Assembly: GCA_017617575.1 (NCBI GenBank)
Contig: JAFZVY010000106.1
Span: forward strand, 1-35,208
DNA length: 35,208 nt
Reading direction: 5' to 3'
Source: Bacteroidaceae bacterium
GTDB taxonomy: Bacteria; Bacteroidota; Bacteroidia; Bacteroidales; Bacteroidaceae
The position numbers were made by a program, and so were the translations under genes. The first letter of the stretch is position 1. Every line of letters begins with the position of its first letter. The notes under the pieces were generated by a model that saw nothing but the letters and a program-made list of their open reading frames with translations, did no database searches and had not been told where the DNA came from. This document shows, piece by piece, positions 2,270 to 29,291 of this stretch.

Positions 2270-5200
2270 CTATTTCAATTCGTCAAGGACGTATTTGGAA
2301 GGGGAGTAGTGCTTGAGTACCCAGAGGATGTAGTCGGATGATACGACGATGTTGCGAAGGTTGTCTGGGTCGGCATGGTAGATGCTGTAGGCGCTGTCGC
2401 CTGTGCGGTCAAAGTTTAAGCCGATAAGCTCACCTTTGGCGTTTACCACGGCACTTCCGCTATTGCCTGATGATGTCTCTGCATTTGTCGTGAAACAAGC
2501 TACAGGAAGTGTCTCGTTGCTTGATTCCAATAGTTTCCTGAATGAAGGACTAATCTCGTAATCCTTGTTGCCCTTCATCTGGTCTATTCGTGCAAGCATA
2601 CCGCCAAGTTGTGTCATGTCTTGTACTCTACCTGGGGCAAGGCGCAGTGTGTGATTGGCATCGTATGCAAGTGCCTCGTCCTTGTGCATCTGGCAATAAG
2701 CTCTCATATATGTGTTGTATAGTCGAGTGTTCTTGCGTCGCAGCGGTGTCTCGTCCTTCATCTGTTTCTGTACACGCATAGTGTATATGTCGATGCACAT
2801 ACGGTAGAGTGGGTCGGTTACAAGTGGTTTCAAGCCGCTGTCGATAGATACGGACAACATCTTGCATAGGCGTTCTCTGTCTGTCAGGATGCTTGTGCGG
2901 AATATGCTGTCAACGTTGAAGTCCTTGTGAAGCACCGCAGGTAGGTATTTCTTTGGCACAGCCTTGAGGTATATTGGCAACAGGATGCTGAGCATCTCAC
3001 GGTCCTCGTCAAGTTTCACCTGTGTGAAATACTCGTCTATGTTGCGTTGTAGTTCCTCTATCTGTTCTTCCATGCTCTCGTTGCGCGATGCCCTCTTTGA
3101 GCGTTCAATGGCTACGAGCTTCTCGAACTTACCAGCGAATGGGATTACAGTAGGTCCTGAACCGATGAACTGGCTGAATGCTTCGTTCATTCTATTATAT
3201 AATGTGAGGCGTGAGTAAACGCTGTCTATGTCTGCTATGAGATGTTCTCCGTACAGTTTACGACGTTCTTCTGATGCGTTAATCCATTCCTGAAGTCTTG
3301 CTTCCTCTCTTCTCTTTCTCTCAACGACGTTATTGTTGCGCACACCGTCTATCTCTCCTCGTGAACGAAGATACACGTTCATAAACTTGCCGATGCGCAC
3401 ATCGTAGGCTGAACGCTCAGATTCAGGTGCGTTGTCACGACATCTTGTGAGGAAGTCAATCTTTGCCTTGAGGAAGTTTACACGCAACTGTGTGTCTGTA
3501 TTTACTATCTTGTCAACAGCCAATGCTGGTATGTGCTTGCGTGTTTGTGATGGATAGCCCATCACCATGGCAAAGTCATTCTCCTTAACTTCTGTATGTG
3601 ACCATCTCAACCATGAATCTGGATGGTAAGGCACGTTCTGTTTAGAGTAGCGTGATGGCTTGTTCTCGTCGGAAGCATATACTCGAAGTAATGCGAAGTC
3701 GCAAGAGTAGCGAGGCCACTTCCAGTTGTCCGTATCACCTCCGAACTTGCCAAGCCACATAGGTGGGCAAGCTACTATACGAACATCATAGAATGTGCGG
3801 TAGCGTACCATGATGAATTGCTTGCCTCCCATCATGCTGTATATCTTACGGAAACAGCCGTATGGCTCTTTCTGTGCCATAAGGTCGCGTGCCTGACGGT
3901 CGATAGCCTGTTCGCGCTTGTCATTATCTGCGATAGTGTCTGTTCCTGCAGTCACCTTGTCTGTAACGTCCTCACATGAAAGCATCTGGTGCATCTCCAT
4001 GTTGAATAGAGGTGCTTCCTGTTCGCGTGACTGTGCCCAGCAACCGTAGCGTGTGTAGTCGTTGTCCTTTGTTGCCAACTTCTGTACGTATGGGCTTACA
4101 CAATGCCAGTTTGTGATTACAAGTCCGTCGGCAGATACGAATGAGGCAGATGCGAAAGGAGATGACAAGCCGTTGTCGCTACTCATGGAGAGTACTGCAC
4201 CTGAGAGACATTTCTTATTTATGGCGTAGATGTCTTTCTTTGACAAAGCAAAGCCGTCCTTGCGAAGAAGGCTGAAAATATCCTTTTCCACAGCTTGGTA
4301 AGGGAACCACATACCAGATGCTCCGTTCTCGCTTAGGTGCAAGTCGTATTTGCTTCTTACTCGCTTGATAAATTCCTTGCGCAAAGAATCCGTGCTGTGT
4401 TGTTGGTCACCAAACACTTTATTGCATTTGCCTGTATATAGGAACTTGTAGCCTTCGTTCAATTCTGACTCTACGTATTTCCTTACGTCACTATTGTCGA
4501 GGCAAGGAACTGTGTGCATGAGAAGCTGGAAATAGTATTTCTGCAAGTCTATTGCCTTTAGCTGACGGAGTGCAGACTCAGGCAAAGCCTTCAGGTTGTT
4601 CACTCCATAGCGAGTGGAAGCTAATGGGTTGTCGCCAAGGTCAGCCTGTTGAACAGTCTCGTCAGTTGGCAAAACAGATACGGTAGCCTTGCGATATAGG
4701 TGGCGAGGATTGCTTTGGTTCTTGTCAATGAACGCCTTGTATTCTGATGGACTGAAATCAGCATATCCTGCCTCTATTGCATATTTGTCATAGTCGCCCA
4801 ATATTGGAGGGAAAACATAGTCAACTTTGTCGCCGCGCTGAGCTACATAGTTGAAACGTGCGTAGTCCATGATGCTTGGCGTAGTACCGTTCCTGCGGCA
4901 GAAGTCCGCATTGCGAAGACTGTCGGTAGGGTAGGAGTATGATGCGCGGAAGTTATGCTCAAGTCCAAGGCAATGTCCAATCTCGTGAGCAACGGAATAG
5001 CGAATCATGCGACTTATTGTAGCATCATTTATTCCGCTTTGTACCTCCTTGTTGTATGCGCCAGTCTGCATCACAATCCAAGACTTGAGGCGTTCAATCA
5101 CGTTTGTGTAGAACTGAACGTCTGCCTGAATAATCTCTCCGCTACGTGGGTCTGTCCAGTGGCTACCCATGGCATTGGCAAAGTCGCTCTCTACTGCATA

Positions 5201-5992
5201 GAAGCAGTTGTTTGTAATGTCGAATGGGTCGAAGCCCTTACCAGCTTCGCTATATGTCATAGCCTTTATTGCATTTGGATGTCCAATGCGTTCAAAAGCG
5301 ATGTTCCAGTCCTCGATACCTTGCTTGATGGCATCCTTCCATAGGGTAGGGAAGTGGTCGTCAACATAGAACACAATCTGCTTGCCATCAATATTGAAAC
5401 GGTCAATGTGTTTATTGTTAAAACTTTTGAAACCAAGACGACGGTCAATAGGCCTTGATTTCATAGGCTTCTCAGACAATAGCAAGAGACTCTTGCGGAT
5501 AGTAATATCGAGTGGAACAGACTTAGTGTCATAGTGGTAGTTGACGCTAACCTCAAGATGTGAGGCATCACCCTTTGCAAGTGAGACTGTAGTCTTTGAT
5601 GCATCAAGTTTGCCTGGCTGTTGCTTGCCAGAAAGGATATCGACGCCCCTTATGATGTCCGTGAAAATGGCATCCATATTGACGTGTAATGTTTCCTTTG
5701 TGGATGACACAACGGGTACGGCATGGCGTAGAGGTCCACGCTTGGCATCTTCGGCAGTCATGACAAGTGAATCATCCTTCAGCGTAAAGCGGACAATCTG
5801 CGGATTATATACTCTCAAACCTGCATATATCTTCATCTTACCGAGTTCCACAGGTTTGCTTATTCTTTCTACACGGGCAGCAATAACATATTCACGTCCA
5901 AGTAATGAACGTGGAATATCAACAGATGTCTTTGTTGCGTTGACAGGTAGAACACTAACAAGTAAAAGATATAACAAATTTAAGAAACGCAT
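2270..5992 (-). CDS. Fusion of metzincin-type zinc metalloprotease and S46 dipeptidyl-peptidase
   Basis: One uninterrupted frame encodes 1240 residues. Residues 1-19 are a signal peptide. Residues about 20-555 resemble the Bacteroidota zinc-dependent metalloproteases with DUF5117/DUF4953 regions: the zinc motif HEIGHCLGLEH has H336, E337, H340 and H346, and SIMDY a little later fits the metzincin Met-turn. From GMW at about 560 to the end is a full-length peptidase S46 domain: NWHC with H630, a GGDTDNWKWPR segment leading to D765, and GNSGSAV with S1178, the expected His-Asp-Ser triad with family-like spacing. R1196 aligns by spacing from the catalytic serine with the arginine that gives DPP11 its preference for Asp/Glu at P1. 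S46 enzymes remove dipeptides from peptide N-termini, usually in the periplasm. Both halves keep their catalytic residues. It lies downstream of the TonB-receptor operon in the same direction, separated by a 220-bp repeat-rich gap. Confidence 0.85.
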   Translation of the reverse strand: MRFLNLLYLLLVSVLPVNATKTSVDIPRSLLGREYVIAARVERISKPVELGKMKIYAGLRVYNPQIVRFTLKDDSLVMTAEDAKRGPLRHAVPVVSSTKETLHVNMDAIFTDIIRGVDILSGKQQPGKLDASKTTVSLAKGDASHLEVSVNYHYDTKSVPLDITIRKSLLLLSEKPMKSRPIDRRLGFKSFNNKHIDRFNIDGKQIVFYVDDHFPTLWKDAIKQGIEDWNIAFERIGHPNAIKAMTYSEAGKGFDPFDITNNCFYAVESDFANAMGSHWTDPRSGEIIQADVQFYTNVIERLKSWIVMQTGAYNKEVQSGINDATISRMIRYSVAHEIGHCLGLEHNFRASYSYPTDSLRNADFCRRNGTTPSIMDYARFNYVAQRGDKVDYVFPPILGDYDKYAIEAGYADFSPSEYKAFIDKNQSNPRHLYRKATVSVLPTDETVQQADLGDNPLASTRYGVNNLKALPESALRQLKAIDLQKYYFQLLMHTVPCLDNSDVRKYVESELNEGYKFLYTGKCNKVFGDQQHSTDSLRKEFIKRVRSKYDLHLSENGASGMWFPYQAVEKDIFSLLRKDGFALSKKDIYAINKKCLSGAVLSMSSDNGLSSPFASASFVSADGLVITNWHCVSPYVQKLATKDNDYTRYGCWAQSREQEAPLFNMEMHQMLSCEDVTDKVTAGTDTIADNDKREQAIDRQARDLMAQKEPYGCFRKIYSMMGGKQFIMVRYRTFYDVRIVACPPMWLGKFGGDTDNWKWPRYSCDFALLRVYASDENKPSRYSKQNVPYHPDSWLRWSHTEVKENDFAMVMGYPSQTRKHIPALAVDKIVNTDTQLRVNFLKAKIDFLTRCRDNAPESERSAYDVRIGKFMNVYLRSRGEIDGVRNNNVVERKRREEARLQEWINASEERRKLYGEHLIADIDSVYSRLTLYNRMNEAFSQFIGSGPTVIPFAGKFEKLVAIERSKRASRNESMEEQIEELQRNIDEYFTQVKLDEDREMLSILLPIYLKAVPKKYLPAVLHKDFNVDSIFRTSILTDRERLCKMLSVSIDSGLKPLVTDPLYRMCIDIYTMRVQKQMKDETPLRRKNTRLYNTYMRAYCQMHKDEALAYDANHTLRLAPGRVQDMTQLGGMLARIDQMKGNKDYEISPSFRKLLESSNETLPVACFTTNAETSSGNSGSAVVNAKGELIGLNFDRTGDSAYSIYHADPDNLRNIVVSSDYILWVLKHYSPSKYVLDELK

Positions 5993-6012
5993 GAAATATA
6001 TTATTATTATGA

Positions 6013-6190
6013 GGAGTAAAAGGGAGTAAAATGGAGTAAAAGGAAGTAAAAAGACGATAGTATAACGTCAAATTTATAATTTCAAATTTTTGCGTCCCGA
6101 TATGTCCCGGAGGCATAAATCATAGATTTGAGATTTCTACATTCGTCTCTTTACTCCTTTTTACTCCTATTTACTCCTCTTTACTTCATT
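6013..6190. repeat. Composite palindromic element with 10-bp phased arms
   Basis: Four units of exactly 10 bp (GGAGTAAAAG, GGAGTAAAAT, GGAGTAAAAG, GAAGTAAAAA) occupy 6013-6052. Their mirror, four 10-bp units beginning TTACTCC or TTACTTC, occupies 6151-6190. A dispersed repeat (6067-6131) sits in the middle. On either strand the arms can fold into a long imperfect hairpin. It fills the gap between the DUF4876-like gene and the protease fusion. Confidence 0.75.
6067..6131 (+). repeat. Dispersed palindromic repeat, copy 1
   Basis: It shares four ordered blocks with 33651-33718: GTCAAATTTATAATTT, TGCGTCCCGA, CCGGAGGCATAAAT and ATAGATTTGA, with different bases and lengths between them. The second and third blocks form an imperfect stem around the loop. 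Two separate intergenic copies suggest a genome-wide repeat family. Confidence 0.7.
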
Positions 6191-6212
6191 CTGAATACTA
6201 TAATTAATTGAT

Positions 6213-7754
6213 TTACTTTACAAGATACTTCTTGCCGCCCTTGATGATTATGTCGGAAGAAACTGTGCCTACCTTCATACCACGAAGGTCATAAACCTTG
6301 TCGTCAGTAGTGGCAGCAGTCTTGTTGATGCTTTCAATGCCTGTTGTAATGAAATCCTTAGGCATGATACCATCCCACTTGATAGAAGTCTCTTCCTCGT
6401 TGAGATAATTGAGGTTGATGTAGAAACGACCCTCACTTGCAACATCAATCTTCAATGTCTGAGGATTGTTGTCAACAGCATCGCGTACAAAACGAGGATT
6501 TTCGCCGTCGTTAACAAACTTCATTGGGTATCTGTTCTTAGTAGTAACAGTAAGCACACCATCAGCATATTTAGTGTCGTCATCTGCTATCCAGTTGTTC
6601 TGGCCAGCAGTAGAGAGGAGACGTTTAGCATCTGTGTACTTTACTGTATGTGTACCAGGAGCTCCAATCAAAAGATATGGTGAGTTGTTGAATACGGTTG
6701 TGTTACCCTGAACACTGTTGCACTTTACAACATTTGAAGAGATTGACACATAGCCAACATAAAGGTCACTTCCACAGAAGAAAGCCTTCTCTGCATTGAA
6801 TGGGAGGAATCCTGATGCAGGGATAGTCACTGTAACATCTGTAGTTCCAGACTCATTATCGTCATACTCCTTGAGACCTATAGTCTTTGATATTGCAAAG
6901 TCACATGAGCTGTTGTTTGTATCATAAAGATACTTGTTGCCATCACAGTTGAGGGCTGTCTTACGATATGCGATGAAACCATCCTTGTTCATCTTCTCTG
7001 TTGCTGGAACATATCCCTTGTCCTGAGTTTCGCTGAAACGCTTACGCTCTGGGTCAACAGAGTAAACTCCATCTGTAGCCTTAGTCTTTAGAATCTCCAC
7101 TACGTCCATAGCGTAATAAGCATTGAATGGGAGATACTTTGAACCAGATGTCTTGCCATTTGCAAATACGTATGTTGACTCATCAGCATAAGTAACCTTT
7201 GAAGCGTTATTCTTCTTAATGATAACAATACCAGCGTCACCACCATTAGTGAGGTTTACTGCCTTAGTATTATCGTTGAATGAGAAAAGAAGATTCAACT
7301 TTGTAACAGACTCGTTGTCACCATTCATTCCACCAAAAGAGAAGTCAGCCTTGCTGAGGTCAGCACCGCCGTTAGTCAAAGTGCTATGATCCATGGCACA
7401 TGCAGCAATAACAACATTTCCCCAAGGCTGAACGATGTAATCCTTATCCTCTGGAATCTGGTACAACTGCTTGAGCTTTATCTCGTAACCAGATTCACGA
7501 TCCTTTGCATAATATGCACCAGTGGTTGATTCGCTCTCGACGAGTCCAATCATCAAACCAGAGATATTACATTCGCTGGCAGAGTTGTTATGAAGCTCAA
7601 TGTATTCCTCTCCACCTGTGTAGTTGGTAGTGGCACCAGCCTTTGTAGTACCAGCATAAAATACCTTACTGATAACCATCTGTGCATCAGCATTAGTGGC
7701 AAGCATGCACATTCCGAGCAATGCTGCACAAATCTTTGTAGTGTTTTTTTTCAT
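6213..7754 (-). CDS. Secreted DUF4876-like protein with lamin-tail-like region
   Basis: The 513-residue product has a signal peptide (1-24, ending ATNADA). Its first half contains VISKVFYAG, then EEYIELHNNS and SGLMIGLVESES, the pattern of lamin-tail-like beta domains and of the Bacteroidota family DUF4876. The same ordered motifs occur in the lipoprotein at 9307-10533 (IGKVYYAG, KYIELYNQS, SGMYIGLTEAES; later YRKT and DTNNSS), so these are paralogues in one operon. The C-terminal half is extra; it ends with VYDLRGMKVG and KGGKKYLVK, resembling C-terminal sorting or anchoring tails of secreted Prevotella proteins. It is the fourth gene of the operon, 12 bases after the barrel gene. Its molecular function is unknown; exported or surface location is an inference from the signal peptide and tail. 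Confidence 0.7.
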   Translation of the reverse strand: MKKNTTKICAALLGMCMLATNADAQMVISKVFYAGTTKAGATTNYTGGEEYIELHNNSASECNISGLMIGLVESESTTGAYYAKDRESGYEIKLKQLYQIPEDKDYIVQPWGNVVIAACAMDHSTLTNGGADLSKADFSFGGMNGDNESVTKLNLLFSFNDNTKAVNLTNGGDAGIVIIKKNNASKVTYADESTYVFANGKTSGSKYLPFNAYYAMDVVEILKTKATDGVYSVDPERKRFSETQDKGYVPATEKMNKDGFIAYRKTALNCDGNKYLYDTNNSSCDFAISKTIGLKEYDDNESGTTDVTVTIPASGFLPFNAEKAFFCGSDLYVGYVSISSNVVKCNSVQGNTTVFNNSPYLLIGAPGTHTVKYTDAKRLLSTAGQNNWIADDDTKYADGVLTVTTKNRYPMKFVNDGENPRFVRDAVDNNPQTLKIDVASEGRFYINLNYLNEEETSIKWDGIMPKDFITTGIESINKTAATTDDKVYDLRGMKVGTVSSDIIIKGGKKYLVK

Positions 7755-7766
7755 AATTATTGTGTT

Positions 7767-9317
7767 TTAAATGAATAAACCCATTGAAAGTCCATACGCA
7801 GAGCCATTAAGCGAGTGCTTAGCTCTTATCGTCTCGCCGTATGCCTTGATGAACCACATATTTCTGTTACCCTTTATGTTCACAGGCATTTGGTACATGA
7901 TGCTAAGTTTGCCACGGAACGCATCCGCATCATAATAGTTCATATCGCCCAAGAGTACCTCACGCGCATAATCAGTATCTGCGTTAGAGAGGCTCAAATT
8001 AGCATTTAGGGAGAAAAGATAACCCACTTCTGCATTTAGCCACAGATGATTATTGAATAATGCCTGTCCATAGTGTGCATTAATAGTCATCGTACGATAC
8101 GCAAACTCTGACGAAGGCAAAAGATGCTTCTGATTGACATCATGTAACTTAACCTCTGCTCCTGCATATCTGGATATCTTGCCATTCCTTGTGAAATGAG
8201 CCCTATAAAGTAACTTGCAGTCAAGCATCTCCATCTGATAACGCTTCTTGTAAGTCATGAGGTTGTCATATCTGTATGAGCTATATCCGCTTACTGAGTC
8301 AATCGTGATTACAAGTTGTGGACGATACTCGTCAGCATAAGCCTGTTCAAATGAAGCAGACAAGTCAAACTGATGGATTACCTTGTTACCGATAATGCGG
8401 TTCTGGGATGAAACGCCATATTTGTATGCTACATATTTTCCTGGCTCACGCTTATACTGTTCGAGGATAGACTCCGTCTCCCTTGCTATGCTAACAGCAT
8501 TAACGGTTCTTACGTGATTAGAACGATAGCCATAGCTGAGTTCACCACAGAAGGCATGATTGACATACTCACGTGCAAATCCGCTATATCCACCAATAGT
8601 ACCAGTTATGGCATCAAGGCCTGACATTTGGTAATAGTAGAGGTTAGGATTGTTCTGTACAGTTGTAAGTGACGGCATCTTTTCCTTGCGACGCTGATAA
8701 TAGCCAGATAATCCGAAGGTGTTGCCTCCTGTTGTATATGACAAAGATGGCATGACCTTATAGTCAAGGAGGCGGTTACGGCTTCGTGGGTCACGAAGAC
8801 GGCTTAGGTCTGCTACAGTATAATCCATACCCATACCAAGTCGCAAGCCATTCATGTCAACAGTACCAACCCTTGCTGTAAGGGTGAAATCCTGATTGTC
8901 ATATCTACCGGGTACAGATGAACCAGAGATAAACGGATTGCTGTTGTATGTACGCATGACATCACTCCATGCCCTGCCTTTGGTACTTCCGTTGTTGAAA
9001 TTGAAACTACCATAGCCATAGAGGGACTTGCCTATTTTCTGGTATCGCTCTGTGAAGAATGACAGTTCATTATGTGATTTACCTTCCTGAACACGATGAT
9101 AGCTACCCTCACCAGCATTATAGCCAAACTGAGCCATGCCGTGAGTGTCAACGCTATCAATACTTATGCACGAAGCATTATTGGTATTGAGCCACAACTG
9201 CATCACATCATCATACATGTATTCGCCCTCATCCATGAGAGGGGCTTTGTCTTGTGAGAATACAGACTGAGACGTCATGCACATGAACATTGCTGATATA
9301 AAATACTTATTCATCAT
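7767..9317 (-). CDS. DUF6850-like outer-membrane beta-barrel protein
   Basis: I choose the ATG at 9317 because it gives a clean signal peptide (MMNKYFISAMFMCMTSQSVF, then SQ) and overlaps the stop of the preceding gene, the usual sign of translational coupling; the open frame itself reaches back to 9395. The mature protein has alternating polar/hydrophobic strands rich in Tyr, Gly and Asn, with repeated G-Y-G and aromatic-ended segments and a C-terminal GLSMGLFI, as expected for an outer-membrane barrel. I assign it to the DUF6850 family found beside DUF4876 genes in Bacteroidota; that name is from memory of family neighbourhoods. No catalytic motif is visible. It probably works with the upstream receptor and lipoprotein. 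Confidence 0.65.
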   Translation of the reverse strand: MMNKYFISAMFMCMTSQSVFSQDKAPLMDEGEYMYDDVMQLWLNTNNASCISIDSVDTHGMAQFGYNAGEGSYHRVQEGKSHNELSFFTERYQKIGKSLYGYGSFNFNNGSTKGRAWSDVMRTYNSNPFISGSSVPGRYDNQDFTLTARVGTVDMNGLRLGMGMDYTVADLSRLRDPRSRNRLLDYKVMPSLSYTTGGNTFGLSGYYQRRKEKMPSLTTVQNNPNLYYYQMSGLDAITGTIGGYSGFAREYVNHAFCGELSYGYRSNHVRTVNAVSIARETESILEQYKREPGKYVAYKYGVSSQNRIIGNKVIHQFDLSASFEQAYADEYRPQLVITIDSVSGYSSYRYDNLMTYKKRYQMEMLDCKLLYRAHFTRNGKISRYAGAEVKLHDVNQKHLLPSSEFAYRTMTINAHYGQALFNNHLWLNAEVGYLFSLNANLSLSNADTDYAREVLLGDMNYYDADAFRGKLSIMYQMPVNIKGNRNMWFIKAYGETIRAKHSLNGSAYGLSMGLFI

Positions 9318-10533
9318 ATTCGCGTGGCTTAATTGATTGTGAAACATTAAAGTCATTACTACTATTGTTTGTGTCGACAAGTATCTTATGACCATCAGCA
9401 GCTCTCTTCATGGTCTTGCGATATACGGTCTCACCATTCCAGCCTGAAGTGGCATTTATATATGTGTAACCTGCATCTATCTTGTCATTCAAACGTTTTG
9501 TCTTAACGTCAATACCTGACGAAGAGTTTCTAAGTGCTTCCATACCATCAAGGATATGGCGTACAGGGCACAATACCCATTGGTTACCTGCGGTCTTGCC
9601 ATAAGGATACACCTTTTGCCAAGATGCCACATCATCATCTGTACGGAAAATGACCACACCCATAGGGCCACTCTGCACAAGATTCATAACAGATGTACCA
9701 TTATAAATCTGGTATATCATTTCCATGGCAGGAGTTGAAGGATTGTTTTGGTACTTACCTGTCACATCCTTTACTTCAAAGTCTGCATCCGTAAGGTCAT
9801 TTTCGTAGTCGTCATTTGTAGTATGGTCAATTGCACTATTGCATATTACCACCGTACCGCCCGGAGCAACCATGTAAGGCGAGCCGGCAGGAATACGATA
9901 TATTTGCTTGAGCAATACAACGGAATCGGCAAAGGCTGTGTGTATATTGTCAAGCGTATATGCTATAGTACTCTCAGCCTCAGTCAAGCCGATATACATA
10001 CCGCTCACGTCTATGGTGTCATCACTTTGGTTGTACAACTCAATATACTTGCCTGCAAGGTAGTTACGATTGTTCTTGTCACGTGAACCAGCATAATAGA
10101 CCTTTCCGATGACAATATCTCTGTTTGCAGACAAGTTAGTTTTCAACTGAATAGTGCCTTCTCCGCTAATAAGGCAAGAGTTGACAGAACCAGCTATCAT
10201 AGCACCACTTACCGCATCCTGATTGTTGGTTGCACTATGATACTCATCTGCAGATATGCTCCATGAAGTGCTTATGTCATACATATCTGGAATAATATTA
10301 TGGAATAAAGCCTTGCCGGAAGCATCTGTCACAACGGATGTCACCTGACCTCCGTTGATAATGCTGACAGTCTTGCCCTCAAGACTTACATCGGAAACGC
10401 AATCCTCAGGTTGCTGCAACTGAACGATGACGCTAACCTCATGTGTGGCATCATCAAAGTTACAGCATCCTGTAAGTGTAAATGCCATTTGGCATGTAAG
10501 GATGGTATGAAATATCTTCTTATTCATTGTCAT
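9307..10533 (-). CDS. DUF4876-like lipoprotein
   Basis: The 408-residue product begins with a lipoprotein signal, lipobox LTGC with acylated C23. The next residues (CNFDD) are acidic and could act as a Bacteroidota surface-export signal, which is an inference. Residues about 30-120 look like a carboxypeptidase-regulatory-type beta domain (VSVIVQLQQPE through KALFHNIIPDMYDI). From about residue 140 the DUF4876/lamin-tail-like pattern starts: IGKVYYAG, KYIELYNQS, SGMYIGLTEAES. It starts two bases after the stop of the TonB receptor, and its own stop overlaps the start of the barrel gene, so the genes form one operon. A role as the receptor's surface partner is plausible but not shown. Confidence 0.7.
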   Translation of the reverse strand: MTMNKKIFHTILTCQMAFTLTGCCNFDDATHEVSVIVQLQQPEDCVSDVSLEGKTVSIINGGQVTSVVTDASGKALFHNIIPDMYDISTSWSISADEYHSATNNQDAVSGAMIAGSVNSCLISGEGTIQLKTNLSANRDIVIGKVYYAGSRDKNNRNYLAGKYIELYNQSDDTIDVSGMYIGLTEAESTIAYTLDNIHTAFADSVVLLKQIYRIPAGSPYMVAPGGTVVICNSAIDHTTNDDYENDLTDADFEVKDVTGKYQNNPSTPAMEMIYQIYNGTSVMNLVQSGPMGVVIFRTDDDVASWQKVYPYGKTAGNQWVLCPVRHILDGMEALRNSSSGIDVKTKRLNDKIDAGYTYINATSGWNGETVYRKTMKRAADGHKILVDTNNSSNDFNVSQSIKPREYDE

Positions 10534-10535
10534 GC

Positions 10536-13364
10536 TTAAAGATTTAGGAACAACTCGGCACCAAAGCTGAATGTGCCAACATTACGCTGTGTCAAGGTTG
10601 TTGTGATATTATTTGTAAGATATGGCTCGTAGTATAGGCAATTATTTACATATACAGACAAACCACCAAGCTTGCCAAGTTCCTTTGTAAGGCGCATGGA
10701 CATGTTCCATGTCACAGGGTTCTTTGTTGGAATGTTATCCGTGTACTTATTTGTAAGATCGCTCACAAGTACACTATACTGACCCTCTGGTTTGTTGGCA
10801 TAATATATACCGTCCATACCTATATAGCCATTCATCATGTCGCTCGTTATGTCATGTGACACAAGATTAGCATCAATCCATCCTATTGGGTTCTTGTCGG
10901 CTACGTAGTTATGATTCCAGTTATACCAGATAGCCTGTGTCGTAAATGATGCCACCATCTTGAGGCGTGGAATGTGTGTCACAATACGAAGAGTGTTTAG
11001 GAAACGCTTGTACATATTGTAGTCCAATCCTGAAGGATAAATAACCTTGAACGGAGTTATCTTATAGCTTGAATAACTTGCTGGAAGCAAAGCACTACGA
11101 ACAGATGAAGTATTAAGGTCTGTGCTCCATGTCTTTGTGTATTGATATGCTCCACTCAAGAAGAAAGTGGTATAAATAGGCTTTATCTCACCAAAGTTGA
11201 TGTCCATCTCAATACCTCTGTTCACGGTTGAGTTCGTATTGCCAATCTTACCTGTAGTCATGACCACAAGGTCACGACGGGAAGGATTGTCATAGTTAAC
11301 GGTGGTTGGCTGACCAGCTACGATGTTAAGTGCACTTTCATCGTACACATTACTATAGTATGTAGTATATTCCGTGGCGTTGCCAAAGCCGTTAGGTGTC
11401 TTGTCCTGATAGAAGAGAAGGCTCACATTACCTCCCCAAGGAAGCTTAGCGTCAAGTCCGCCCTCTATCTTTGTGGTAGTTGCGTTCTTCAGGTCCTTTG
11501 ACATCTTGACATCGTACACCTGTGTGTGATATACGAGCAACTGTGCTGCCGCATCATCCTGTGGCATATAATTGACTGCCACCCTGTCAGAGTATTTCTT
11601 GTCAGGATAGATGTAGTCCAGTCCCGGAGTCTTGCTATTGACTCCTATGCCTGAACGTAAGGTGAGCCATTTTGTCAAAGAGAAAGATGCGTTGAGTCGA
11701 GGACTGAGCGATGAAGTGGAAACCTCAGACCAAGGTTGCATGGATGTGTATCGGAAACCGAGGTTTATCTTCAACTCATTTGTCTTGTTTATTTCCCAGC
11801 AGAAATTGTCCTCTGCATAGGCGTTTATCTGATGAAGTCCAGGAATATCAGAGAAAGCACGTGGACGACCATCGCTATTAGGCTTGTAAGGAAGACTTTC
11901 ATTCTCATTATAGTAGCCACGACCATTATTCCAGTCATAGTGATATTCAAGACCGACCTTGAAATTCTGTCTTGTCTTGTTCTTATAAATACTGAAAGCG
12001 TCATTTACCTTTAGGAACAGATTGCCTGGACGGCACTCTGTTATACCTGTGGCAAGGTATGATGTAGTCATCCATGGAACAGAATAATATCCTGTCTCCA
12101 TAGCTGTAATTATAGGCAACAAACCTGTTGTATTGCTTACGTATGAACTGTTCACGTTGTCTGTATAAGTAAGCGAGAGACCAGCTGTATATGAAAGCGT
12201 CTGCATAAAACGCTTATTGGCAGATATGCGTCCCCTGTGGCTGAAGCTCCAGCTTGTGGTGCTGTTACGACTGTATGTACCGTCGTCTATGGCATCAGGG
12301 TCATTACCTGTCCAGTCAACAGCCTTCATAAACTTAACCTTGGTGTCTGTATGCCATTTCTTTGTTAAGTCATAATCATAGCCAACGCTCACGTTATATC
12401 GGTTGAACGAACGAGTCTTCTGTCTTGGGTCGCCCCATGCCTTGGCATAATCCACGTTAAAGTTGAGTACACCATAGTCTTTCATCCTCAATCCCTTGCC
12501 GAGAGAATAGTTCTGCAACTCAGGCGTAATCTTAGCCTTTGCCTGCCAAGGAGTGACACCAGCCTTGGAATGAACGACAACAAGACCGCTGGTAAGGTCG
12601 CCATACTCTGCGGAAGGGATTCCTCGGATAATCTCCACATTGTCTATGTTGTCTGCACCAATCTGACGGAGGTCTGTGCCTGTGAATGCCGTACTTGAGA
12701 ATGCACCCTGTGACACATTTCCATTATTTGACATAGGGATGCCATCAACAACTACACTTGAACCAAAGGCACTTGTGTTGTTGTTGACAAGTGTACGCAA
12801 CTGAAGATTTGTTTTGGATGTTAAATCAGTATTACCCATTACCTGACCAGGAATGAGCTGCATCACGTCTGCAAGACTTGTTGCCTGAAGGTGGTCGATA
12901 GCCTGACGACCGATAAATGTATTGGAAGAAGCACCAGACTCTTTCTGCTGGGCAGTCACGATAACCTCATTGATGGCAAGTGATGACTGTGCCATGACGA
13001 ATTTCTGGACAATGTCTCCATTTACGTTTATCTTCTTCACCAGAGGCTCCATGCCTACGTATGTTACCTTCAGCGTCCATTCGCCAGCAGGCACATCTGT
13101 AAACACGGCATCACCATTCATGTTGGTGGCAGCAAATACACCAAGTGGTTGCAACTCGCAACGACCGAGAATCAGAGGCTGATTCGTGTCGTCGTCGATG
13201 TGCAATGTTACCCTGAATGTATTGCCTTTCTTTGCAACTGTGTTGCGATGATTAATATTTGCATTTGGCTTTTGCGCCATTCCACTTGTTGCTCCTGTGG
13301 ATAGTAAGAAAGCGAAACAGATGCGAAGCCAATATCTTTGGTTATATGATGCGCTTAGATTCAT
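10536..13364 (-). CDS. TonB-dependent outer-membrane receptor
   Basis: The 942-residue protein has a signal peptide (about 1-30, ending SGMAQ). Residues about 50-130 form a carboxypeptidase-regulatory-like domain (VFTDVPAGEWTLKVTYVGM). The plug follows, with INEVIVTAQQ, LADVMQLIPGQ, VVVDGIPMSN and IEIIRG-like NVEIIRGIPSAEYGDLTSG. The remainder is a 22-strand-type barrel with many aromatic strands, ending FSFGAELFLNL. This is the architecture of Bacteroidota TonB receptors that lack a SusD partner; none is encoded nearby, and DUF4876-like and DUF6850-like genes take that place. The receptor is the first gene of the leftward operon and has its own promoter. The substrate cannot be inferred. Confidence 0.9.
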   Translation of the reverse strand: MNLSASYNQRYWLRICFAFLLSTGATSGMAQKPNANINHRNTVAKKGNTFRVTLHIDDDTNQPLILGRCELQPLGVFAATNMNGDAVFTDVPAGEWTLKVTYVGMEPLVKKINVNGDIVQKFVMAQSSLAINEVIVTAQQKESGASSNTFIGRQAIDHLQATSLADVMQLIPGQVMGNTDLTSKTNLQLRTLVNNNTSAFGSSVVVDGIPMSNNGNVSQGAFSSTAFTGTDLRQIGADNIDNVEIIRGIPSAEYGDLTSGLVVVHSKAGVTPWQAKAKITPELQNYSLGKGLRMKDYGVLNFNVDYAKAWGDPRQKTRSFNRYNVSVGYDYDLTKKWHTDTKVKFMKAVDWTGNDPDAIDDGTYSRNSTTSWSFSHRGRISANKRFMQTLSYTAGLSLTYTDNVNSSYVSNTTGLLPIITAMETGYYSVPWMTTSYLATGITECRPGNLFLKVNDAFSIYKNKTRQNFKVGLEYHYDWNNGRGYYNENESLPYKPNSDGRPRAFSDIPGLHQINAYAEDNFCWEINKTNELKINLGFRYTSMQPWSEVSTSSLSPRLNASFSLTKWLTLRSGIGVNSKTPGLDYIYPDKKYSDRVAVNYMPQDDAAAQLLVYHTQVYDVKMSKDLKNATTTKIEGGLDAKLPWGGNVSLLFYQDKTPNGFGNATEYTTYYSNVYDESALNIVAGQPTTVNYDNPSRRDLVVMTTGKIGNTNSTVNRGIEMDINFGEIKPIYTTFFLSGAYQYTKTWSTDLNTSSVRSALLPASYSSYKITPFKVIYPSGLDYNMYKRFLNTLRIVTHIPRLKMVASFTTQAIWYNWNHNYVADKNPIGWIDANLVSHDITSDMMNGYIGMDGIYYANKPEGQYSVLVSDLTNKYTDNIPTKNPVTWNMSMRLTKELGKLGGLSVYVNNCLYYEPYLTNNITTTLTQRNVGTFSFGAELFLNL

Positions 13365-27193: not shown

Positions 27194-27278
27194 AAAAAAT
27201 GATGTCGTGATGCAATAAATGCGCTTTGTTGTGCGTATATATAGATATAATCCAAACTTTACTATCGTTTTCTAAATT

Positions 27279-29291
27279 ATGAAAAAACTGATTTTTACCA
27301 TGATTGCTTGTCTCACACTGACGGCACAAGCAAAAGTTATCAAGCGTATCAAGTCGCCAGAGGCATTGCTGTGCCTCGACGTGCATCTTGGTGAGTTGAA
27401 AGCCAACGAAGTAATTATGACCGACACGGCAACAACCGTGAAGTTCACCATGGAGTATCGGAAGGGAGAATTGTTCAGTATTCAGCCATGGGCATGCTTA
27501 GTGGACGAGGATGGCAACCGCTATCCTGTCCGTTCGTCAGAGGGATTGAAGCTGGGCGAATGGATAACGTCACCCGAATCGGAGAATACAGATTTCACCC
27601 TCCACTTTGCGCCTATGCCTAAACACGTGAAGATGTTCGACTTCATCGAGGGTGATGGCAGCAATATGTTTAAGCTCTTGGGTATCCATGACAGCAAGAT
27701 GAAACTGCACGTTCCTACGATGAAGGAACTGACGGACGCTTATCCTTACACATTGCCAGTAGATTGGCTCAAGACGGACACCATTACCGTGAAGGGACGC
27801 ATCGAGGGGTATGACGAGAAGGCGTTTGGCTTCAATTCGATGAAGTTATATAATTATGATGTCATGCAAGAAAAGGATGTCGTCATGGTTATGGATATCA
27901 AAGCAGATGGAACATTTGAGAAGAAATTCTGTTATGGTTCTCCAATCTTTACGGCTTTTCATGCTCCTCAATCATATAATGGCTTCGATGAGATTCCTTT
28001 CTTTGCTCGCCCGGGCGAAACGATTGATATAACTGTCCGTAAGAATAATGGTGGTGGATATGAGTGTGTGTATAATAATGGTAGTAGCAAGGAGGTAAGC
28101 CGATTGCTGAAATCGTACAAGAATTATGAAGGGGTACGTTATGCTTCAAGCTTCAGAGGCAAGTTTGCAGAATTCACTCCTTATGTAGAGCGTAAGCTGA
28201 ATAGTGTGCTTTACTACTTGAATAAGAATATCATTCAGAACAATTACACTCCACTTGAAACCCAGTTGGCGCTGGCTATTGTACAAACCAACCTTGCTGG
28301 TGCTGTTATGGACTATGCCATGATGCATAGGTATGATTTGCAGTATCAGGAAAAGCGTGACGGTGAATATTACACAAGCATTACCGATAGTGCGGAGTAC
28401 GCAACATTGTCAGATGCTAAATCATACTCATTGCTTAAACTCGTGGATTTCAACAATCCATTGCTTTTGAGTACAGGCTCGACATACTATTTCCTTATCA
28501 ATCGTTTATGTTTTTGCAGTTATGTCATGAGCAAGATGGATAGTGAAATATATAACGATGCAAGGAAACGACTGGAGACAAGCTACGCCGCCTTACGCGA
28601 ATTGCTCGGAAGTGGAGAAGAAAACACCTTGACAGCACAGATATGTGCGTTTGATAGCTACAAACGCAACTTCAAGTCTTGGCAAGGCAACGAGAATTTC
28701 ATCAAGTCGTCATCAGTAGAAATAAAGACCAACTATGTTTTGACCAACCGTCTCAGCGTTGCACATCCTTTGTACCTTTCCTCAATTACCCATCCTTACA
28801 TTCATGCCAAGGTGGAGCAGTTTTATGCTGATAAGATGGCGGCAAAGGACTTGACTTGGACGTTGCCAAAGGACAATGCGGCTGCCGACGTGATTCGTTC
28901 CATAGCCGCACGCTACCCTGGACGCTACTTGTACATTGACTTCTGGGGAATGGGCTGCGGTCCGTGCCGTGGCGAGATACAGCAATACAAGGACAAACGT
29001 GCAGAGATAGCCAAGCGTGACGATGTGAAACTTATCTTCATTGCAGGTGAGAGTACGGAAGAAGGAAGCGAGGGGTATCGTAAGTACGTCAAGGAATGGC
29101 TGGATGGCGAAGAGGCTGTTTGTGTTACAGACAAGATGTTCAACAACATGATGGAACTCTTCCGTTTCAGTGCCATTCCTCACAAGGAGATTATAACTCC
29201 CGACGGACGTGTGGTGAGCGATGACATCAGCGTCAGCATGTATGACTTCGACCGCAGCTTTGAGGCTATGAAGGAGAAGGTGGAAAAGTAG
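27279..29291 (+). CDS. Secreted TlpA-like protein with variant GCGPC redox site
   Basis: The 670-residue product has a signal peptide (MKKLIFTMIACLTLTAQA). The C-terminal domain from about residue 535 is a TlpA/ResA-type thioredoxin fold: YLYIDFWGMGCGPC with cysteines C560 and C563, then FSAIPHKEI with the cis-proline. The tryptophan normally just before the first cysteine is replaced by G559. The middle has ARPGETIDITVRKN and VYNNGSS, also present in the TlpA-like protein at 375-1967, so the two share their full plan; this one has an additional N-terminal domain of about 150 residues. It probably handles thiols outside the cytoplasm. It follows the sigma cassette by 85 bases and may be part of the same operon or its target. 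Confidence 0.82.
   Translation: MKKLIFTMIACLTLTAQAKVIKRIKSPEALLCLDVHLGELKANEVIMTDTATTVKFTMEYRKGELFSIQPWACLVDEDGNRYPVRSSEGLKLGEWITSPESENTDFTLHFAPMPKHVKMFDFIEGDGSNMFKLLGIHDSKMKLHVPTMKELTDAYPYTLPVDWLKTDTITVKGRIEGYDEKAFGFNSMKLYNYDVMQEKDVVMVMDIKADGTFEKKFCYGSPIFTAFHAPQSYNGFDEIPFFARPGETIDITVRKNNGGGYECVYNNGSSKEVSRLLKSYKNYEGVRYASSFRGKFAEFTPYVERKLNSVLYYLNKNIIQNNYTPLETQLALAIVQTNLAGAVMDYAMMHRYDLQYQEKRDGEYYTSITDSAEYATLSDAKSYSLLKLVDFNNPLLLSTGSTYYFLINRLCFCSYVMSKMDSEIYNDARKRLETSYAALRELLGSGEENTLTAQICAFDSYKRNFKSWQGNENFIKSSSVEIKTNYVLTNRLSVAHPLYLSSITHPYIHAKVEQFYADKMAAKDLTWTLPKDNAAADVIRSIAARYPGRYLYIDFWGMGCGPCRGEIQQYKDKRAEIAKRDDVKLIFIAGESTEEGSEGYRKYVKEWLDGEEAVCVTDKMFNNMMELFRFSAIPHKEIITPDGRVVSDDISVSMYDFDRSFEAMKEKVEK

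Follow-up and report, generated by a model that had tools for sequence, protein, structure and literature searches.

A metzincin and an S46 dipeptidyl-peptidase joined in one exported protein at a putative TonB operon of Bacteroidales

Background

Two unrelated peptidases, a zinc-dependent metzincin and an S46 dipeptidyl-peptidase, are joined in a single protein encoded on a 35,208-nucleotide stretch of a Bacteroidaceae genome (GenBank assembly GCA_017617575.1, contig JAFZVY010000106.1, positions 1 to 35,208; "the window" below means this whole stretch). The fused gene is present in six draft genomes from three genera and two families, and relatives carry the same two genes in tandem. Both halves belong to known families, and it is the fused pairing that appears to be new. 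The gene is the last of a putative operon of TonB, DUF4876, DUF6850 and DUF4876 genes, and we put at roughly 60% the probability, judged from sequence comparisons, that its product works in the periplasm as a combined endo- and exopeptidase, serving a TonB uptake system of Bacteroidales akin to protease-associated import. In the latter, as the sections consulted of PMC6793856 describe it, a TonB receptor imports a protein that a periplasmic protease then digests; PqqL and FusC belong here, and other proteases may fill the role in some clusters.

The window genome is a 3.38 Mb draft in 162 contigs, 86% complete. The fusion is the only DUF4953 gene found in it, and one further S46 gene, a stand-alone one, lies on another contig (C122).

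Results

One frame, two catalytic sites

The gene reads without interruption from its ATG start to its TAG stop on the minus strand (Table 1), and the same frame of the plus strand is riddled with stops. A preliminary description of this DNA, made from its letters, had reported the single frame without a strand; the intact frame stands, and the strand is minus. The residues it had named (H336, E337, H340 and H346 of the zinc site, the Met-turn, and H630, D765 and S1178 of the S46 triad) all lie where it had placed them, and its view that two unrelated families are present, each with its catalytic residues kept, is supported by Pfam matches and alignments. Zinc-site and triad residues are conserved in all six fused sequences and in every tandem-type sequence checked (12 metzincin, 12 S46).

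Occurrence of the fusion

In the window's family, fusions were found in G019 (87% identical; locus L061, tree row L003) and G091 (72% identical) besides the window genome; in a second family, f111, they were found in G519, G803 and G802 of genus g140 (15 genomes), the G802 gene being cut at a contig start. The fusion, first noticed in the window genome alone, is therefore not unique to it. Counting the window where it was searched, the fusion was seen in 2 of 45 genomes of the window's genus, which rules out that it is universal there, and in 3 of 399 genomes of its family (E ≤ 1e-70), with 3 of 15 in f111 and one of the two genomes of G091's genus. An order search (393 genomes, E ≤ 1e-85) gave, among the matches listed, a single match spanning both halves only in the window genome and G519, and a phylum search (345 genomes, E ≤ 1e-105) gave no fusion match besides the window itself; with these cut-offs and few candidates scored per genome, weaker or diverged fusions may be missed at the family, order and phylum levels. 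The contig scan, run with a single query protein, reaches close relatives only and covers the best 80 of 105 confirmed loci. In the genus, family, contig-scan and order searches alike the two peptidases usually occurred as stand-alone proteins, as the preliminary description had held. Its remark that no enzyme with this pairing had been described also agrees with the literature searched, in which no metzincin-S46 pairing was found (most subscription journals and preprints lay outside the scope); the main text of a Prevotella peptidase survey (PMC9045265) lacks the words "fusion" and "fused".

We regard an assembly or base-calling error that merged two genes as very improbable. Such an error would fit with the draft, multi-contig state of all six carriers (60–330 contigs), with the split genes of both single-contig genomes that have the pair (G198, G070), and with the split forms of relatives, where the gap in G800 is only 3 nt. 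However, the fusion recurs in separate genomes, including the two at 87% and 72% identity to the window, the linker is alignable across the three fusions of the window's family, and the joined region is without a second signal peptide, which would still be there had one indel or one miscalled base merged the genes. Between the window and L061 the linker is alignable yet more variable than the halves, for which the ratio of nonsynonymous to synonymous substitution rates (dN/dS) is 0.058 in the metzincin and 0.099 in the S46 part (dS about 0.9–1.0), so that both halves are maintained by purifying selection. The recurrence in six genomes and this selection on both halves make an assembly error unlikely.

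The metzincin half

Pfam places DUF4953 ("Met-zincin", PF16313) at residues 321–474 with 172.5 bits against a cut-off of 24.2, over profile positions 4–166 of 316 only; DUF5117 scores 23.4 bits, below its cut-off of 27, and DUF5118 was unmatched in the Pfam scan. The metzincin assignment of the preliminary description thus holds for the zinc site and Met-turn, which are intact, but the domain is trimmed relative to the DUF5118-DUF5117-DUF4953 layout. With the zinc proteases of that layout in Bacteroidota the fusion shares the HExxHxxGxxH site, the Met-turn and 77 of 111 highly conserved positions; it differs in having about half the DUF4953 profile, no DUF5118, a deleted segment and an attached S46 domain. 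The deleted segment is a conserved one ahead of the catalytic domain, missing from the fused sequences of the window's family. Four long relatives scanned (the unfused L141, L063 and L227 and the stand-alone L072) have DUF5118, DUF5117 and nearly the whole of DUF4953, whereas a short DUF4953, ending at profile positions 166–200 of 316, is found in the split g140 genes L246 and L225 as well as in the fusions of the window, L144, L224 and L247. In all six the DUF5117 match is weak; it clears the cut-off in the fusion L144 and in both split genes, and falls short in the other three fusions (window, L224, L247). Since the split g140 forms are also short, trimming of the metzincin preceded or accompanied the fusion. 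Among solved structures the half matched only EcxA (E 0.0017 alone, 8e-5 as a profile), followed by weaker matches to matrix metalloproteinases and adamalysin. One of the 55 stand-alone metzincin sequences has none of the six zinc-site and Met-turn residues checked.

The S46 half

The S46 family (PF10459) covers residues 559–1240 with 481.7 bits against a cut-off of 22, over profile positions 3–697 of 698. The closest solved structure is an Asp/Glu-specific dipeptidyl-peptidase (DPP), 5jxf (E 3e-87), followed by other Asp/Glu-specific DPP entries (about 1e-63) and then by DAP BII (about 1e-54). In an alignment with 4xzy, read by eye, the triad of Porphyromonas gingivalis DPP11 (PgDPP11; His85, Asp227, Ser655) and its Arg673 correspond to H630, D765, S1178 and R1196 of the fusion, and its Asn218, Trp219, Asn333 and Asp672 to N756, W757, N872 and D1195. 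The catalytic and amino-terminus-binding roles of these PgDPP11 residues are set out in part of PMC6753110, and the rule that Arg rather than Gly at position 673 marks DPP11-type specificity in part of PMC8048996, which also gives Ser as the residue of the Shewanella-type DPP11. All six fusions have Arg at this position; so do 10 of the 12 tandem-type S46 sequences, the others having Ser (L142) and Gly (L190, an S46 without a metzincin), while 57 stand-alone sequences divide into 22 with Arg and 35 with Gly.

Every aligned sequence has the triad. All six fusions also retain the four residues that bind the amino terminus, which deviate in L063 (Trp replaced by Tyr) and L190 (Trp replaced by Phe, Asp by Cys). 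The S46 half is no DPP7 equivalog, as it scores 309.1 bits against a cut-off of 1200 for the NCBIfam Dpp7 equivalog (NF053519), and it carries the Arg673 marker of a DPP11-type, Asp/Glu-specific enzyme. With the DPP11 proteins of P. gingivalis and P. endodontalis, which are its nearest solved structures, it shares the whole S46 profile, the triad, the amino-terminus-binding Asn/Trp/Asn/Asp set and the Arg673 equivalent; unlike them it sits behind about 550 residues of metzincin, has no signal peptide of its own and lacks a conserved Cys and a conserved Trp. Separately, the S46 gene of L190 (14861–17086) lies directly upstream of a TonB gene; Gly occupies its Arg673 position, Cys replaces the amino-terminus-binding Asp, and its specificity may be altered.

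Tandem relatives and the history of the join

In 12 further genomes the metzincin and S46 genes are separate and adjoining, metzincin first: L063, L074 (its S46 truncated by the contig end), L141 (G198), L142 (G070), L225 (G762), L226 (G618), L227 (G687), L228 (G602), L246 (G800), L249 (G799), L250 (G801) and L251 (G798). What had looked like long fused frames or spans at G198, G070, L063, L074, G762, G618 and G800 proved to be separate adjoining open reading frames (ORFs). In all 12 pairs each gene starts with a signal peptide, as judged by eye, and in G800 (L246, 4957–8670) the TAG stop of the metzincin is followed by AAA and then, in frame, by the ATG of the S46 gene, a natural near-fusion. 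No hydrophobic stretch was seen at the junction of the fused proteins, so the join eliminated the stop codon along with the inner signal peptide; read from these sequences, the fusion is a join of two operon neighbours with the inner signal peptide dropped. The preliminary description had proposed coupled processing, endoproteolysis followed by dipeptide release in one molecule, and this idea gains support because the two genes adjoin in 12 further genomes (a Rosetta-stone pattern).

Trees were built from 48 of 75 S46 and 46 of 73 metzincin sequences, stand-alone ones being thinned at even steps and the metzincin tree being a quick one. In the S46 tree a 100/100 branch separates the six fused and 11 of the 12 tandem-type sequences from 30 stand-alone sequences and L190, and the metzincin tree agrees on a core of the six fused and six split g140 sequences and on the adjoining L141. 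Of the 15 g140 genomes, three have the fusion and six the split pair, and nothing matched in the other six at E ≤ 1e-100. A tree of joined metzincin and S46 sequences (leaving out L142, L190, G602, L074 and all stand-alone sequences) clusters the fused with the split g140 sequences at 99/98, whereas a tree of the three upstream genes (13 rows, without G802 and G687) places the window and L061 with the fused G803 and G519 of g140 (100/100) and L062 (row L033) elsewhere (80/87). A single clade of fused sequences was rejected on both data sets by the approximately unbiased test (p-AU 0.0096 for the joined sequences, 0.0058 for the upstream genes), values for which the program warns of long branches and for which the test group was picked after the first tree had been seen. 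From the discordance between joined and upstream-gene trees, operon parts seem to have been exchanged. L062 is a candidate instance of such an operon mosaic: compared with window positions 6213–13364, its fusion is close, but its TonB, DUF4876 and DUF6850 genes group elsewhere and the second DUF4876 gene is missing.

The distribution allows either two fusions or one fusion with one fission, and we favour two fusions because a fission needs a newly gained signal peptide. One ancient fusion followed by fission in the six split g140 genomes is possible but on balance unlikely. It takes two changes on the tree, as two fusions do, and it would suit the 100/100 cluster, on upstream genes, of the operons that have a second DUF4876 gene and the fusion (the window, L061, G519 and G803). 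It would, however, require the S46 to regain its signal peptide; the six more distantly related pairs are all split, each gene with a signal peptide of its own; and both tests, subject to the cautions above, reject a single fused clade.

The operon around the fusion

Upstream of the fusion lie four genes on the same strand (Table 1), and their spacing leads us to infer a single transcript that would end with the fusion. Of the 18 pairs (six fused, 12 tandem), 14 have the TonB-DUF4876-DUF6850 trio within the stretch of DNA retrieved. At L224 only the second DUF4876 gene precedes the contig end, and the trio of the same genome lies at another contig's edge (L232); L248 is cut. Gene order varies, the pair preceding TonB in L142 and the lone S46 preceding it in L190. 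At L063 and L141 an extracytoplasmic function (ECF) sigma factor and FecR are also encoded upstream, and the receptor carries an STN domain, a FecIR-type arrangement.

Table 1. Features of the fused gene and its operon in the window
Feature	Coordinates	Strand	Description	Basis
Fused metzincin-S46 gene	2270..5992	minus	1240 residues, ATG start, TAG stop, single uninterrupted frame 5992 to 2270	
Signal peptide	5936..5992	minus	MRFLNLLYLLLVSVLPVNA, residues 1–19, without lipobox Cys	by eye
Metzincin half	4571..5935	minus	DUF4953-type, residues 20–474; DUF5117 weakly matched	Pfam and alignments
Zinc site	4955..4987	minus	HEIGHCLGLEH, residues 336–346; conserved throughout the 6 fused and 12 tandem sequences	
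Met-turn	4862..4873	minus	IMDY, residues 374–377 (IMDYAR, M375)	alignment
Shortened metzincin tail and linker	4319..4570	minus	residues 475–558; second signal peptide not seen	
S46 dipeptidyl-peptidase half	2273..4318	minus	residues 559–1240	Pfam and solved-structure alignment
Catalytic His630	4103..4105	minus	PgDPP11 His85	alignment
Catalytic Asp765	3698..3700	minus	PgDPP11 Asp227	alignment
Catalytic Ser1178	2459..2461	minus	PgDPP11 Ser655	alignment
Arg1196	2405..2407	minus	PgDPP11 Arg673, Asp/Glu specificity marker	alignment
TonB-dependent receptor	10536..13364	minus	first gene of putative operon	
LTD1	9307..10533	minus	DUF4876/lamin-tail lipoprotein (lipobox by eye); only solved match 4q1z	
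DUF6850 protein	7767..9395	minus		Pfam
LTD2	6213..7754	minus	second DUF4876/lamin-tail protein, signal peptide lacking a lipobox (by eye); gene immediately precedes the fusion	

The 220-nt spacer ahead of the fusion (5993–6212) holds an inverted repeat with 51-nt arms made of 10-nt GGAGTAAAA units and folds at -70.8 kcal/mol (z -9.8). The unit pattern has 16 copies in the window genome against none for a reversed control, which suggests a dispersed repeat; in L061 another strong fold (z -9.3), unlike this one, occupies the same place. An Rfam scan of the window returned three tRNAs and nothing else, and DUF6850 had no solved structure at E ≤ 0.1. Elsewhere in the window, on the plus strand, two thioredoxin-like ORFs with signal-peptide-like starts (375–1967 and 27276–29291) match each other in phmmer.

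DUF4876 and DUF6850 loci elsewhere

DUF6850 exceeds its cut-off in 70 of the 393 order genomes. We surveyed 40 loci, for the most part those with the highest scores, together with the other two copies of the window genome, in stretches of up to 19.9 kb; companions were sought with single-protein phmmer queries, so the counts are lower bounds. DUF4857 accompanies at least 14, a HEAT-repeat protein 11 and an M16 protease 3, and 11 showed none of these; S46 lies next to TonB in one locus and about 8.6 kb off in one more, a HEAT locus. The HEAT-related proteins, of about 735 residues, are encoded at L177, L178, L180–L183, L192, L193, L201, L206 and L214; of ten scanned, eight score above the cut-off for HEAT_2, the match lying towards the C terminus, and a named N-terminal domain was found in none. 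One M16 locus, L175 (G000 contig 117, 48000–63085; hereafter C117), is a paralogous TonB-DUF4876-DUF6850 locus of the window genome itself and a candidate protein-import locus in Bacteroidales; the other two are L204 and L207. The C117 protease is closest to 9ldy (E 6e-205), then to PqqL (6ofs, 4e-66) and to 6b03/6brs (about 1e-32), which we take to be FusC.

Published loci tie DUF4876-TonB genes to a strong iron response in P. gingivalis and Bacteroides thetaiotaomicron. The table rows of PMC10434189 give increases under low iron of 20.8- to 214.5-fold for PG1019-22 (DUF4876-TonB), about 37- to 128-fold for BT3625-33 (DUF4857, ABC, two DUF4876, TonB) and 3.5- to 7.4-fold for BT1933-39 (HEAT, DUF4876, TonB), and a hemin-availability expression table in PMC10470040 lists a P. 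gingivalis DUF4876 gene with a log2 change of -5.42. These loci have the TonB receptor and DUF4876 in common with the window operon, and their HEAT and DUF4857/ABC companions match those of our survey; unlike the window operon, they show no metzincin or S46 in those table rows.

Discussion

Taken together, the gene neighbourhood and the conserved residues point to a soluble, exported, most likely periplasmic, bifunctional protein, with an N-terminal metzincin endopeptidase and a DPP11-type S46 dipeptidyl-peptidase on either side of a short linker. The TonB receptor and a surface lipoprotein would carry a peptide or small protein through the outer membrane; the metzincin would cleave this cargo internally and so create new amino termini, whose free amino group the S46 half would sense, removing dipeptides with a preference for Asp or Glu at P1. 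DPP11 specificity and amino-terminus recognition are established for relatives in the sections consulted of PMC6753110 and PMC8048996. The purpose would probably be nutrient release, and perhaps the release of iron or haem from an imported protein. That an endopeptidase is fused to a dipeptidyl-peptidase suggests a shared substrate, and the presence of proteases at DUF4876/DUF6850 TonB loci of some lineages suggests a protein or peptide cargo.

The Fus (FusA/FusC) and YddB/PqqL systems likewise combine, in one cluster, a TonB receptor with an exported zinc protease. The window locus differs in its DUF4876 and DUF6850 partners and in a protease that is not of the M16 family; in the window genome a Fus/PqqL-like M16 was found only at the paralogous C117 locus, the window locus having the metzincin-S46 protein instead. 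The Fus/PqqL survey section of PMC6793856 describes Proteobacteria, whereas the window belongs to Bacteroidales. The window receptor had no match to the FusA/YddB family, its only solved matches at E ≤ 0.1 being ferric enterobactin receptors over residues 132–271; FusA was presumably among the solved structures compared.

Several observations weigh against a periplasmic digestive role in such an uptake system. The window metzincin has lost 34 of the 111 positions that are at least 90% conserved in non-fused sequences, including the deleted segment, and the S46 half has lost 43 of 139 highly conserved positions, among them a Cys and a Trp found in all 57 stand-alone S46 sequences, the Cys taken to be the disulfide partner of C631; such losses in both halves could mean changed or weakened activity. 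The tandem pairs L227 and L228 have no trio nearby, and proteases are a minority in the 40 other DUF6850 loci (3 M16, 2 S46, no metzincin), so proteolysis would be an add-on to the trio and not its core. Upstream of nine operons the best scores to a 19-nt Fur consensus were 10–13 of 19 per operon, and no Fur-like box stood out. The metzincin tree does not resolve the tandem sequences outside the core group or the order within that group.

The lost positions, together with the half-length DUF4953 and the absent Cys partner, would also fit an account in which one or both halves are degenerate and the protein binds a peptide or regulates the receptor without digesting anything; we think this improbable, as the catalytic and amino-terminus-binding residues are intact in six fusions and dN/dS is low in both halves. 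A stronger competitor, though still less probable than a dedicated uptake system of the protease-associated kind, is general peptide nutrition, with the operon a peptide importer, the fusion feeding amino acids to the cell and iron uninvolved. In P. gingivalis, periplasmic DPP7 and DPP11 turn imported oligopeptides into dipeptides (PMC8048996, in part); at L063 the next ORF after the S46 gene encodes an asparaginase; and in none of nine g140 genomes searched (drafts, 77–90% complete) was an S46 gene found besides the one in the operon, so that there the operon gene would have to serve nutrition. On the other side, the window genome already has its stand-alone S46, the scanned window neighbours gave no SusD/RagB match and the partners are DUF4876 and DUF6850 proteins, and the published DUF4876-TonB loci are iron-starvation genes in the table of PMC10434189.

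A bolder extension of the import reading, which we hold tentatively and consider rather doubtful as a whole, is that TonB-DUF4876-DUF6850 loci of Bacteroidales may form a protein-import or iron (haem) piracy system with swappable periplasmic proteases. In rumen lineages a single chain combining endo- and exopeptidase would have taken the place of the M16 protease, and its DPP11 half would suit acidic iron proteins, allowing full digestion to dipeptides with release of the metal. Ferredoxins are acidic and would suit the Asp/Glu preference; that they are the cargo is our guess.

The split and fused states inside the single genus g140 constitute a natural experiment on this pairing. If the import reading is true, protease-associated import reaches the Bacteroidota with a different protease chemistry, and in some uncultured gut and rumen bacteria one molecule may both cut an imported protein and strip it to dipeptides.

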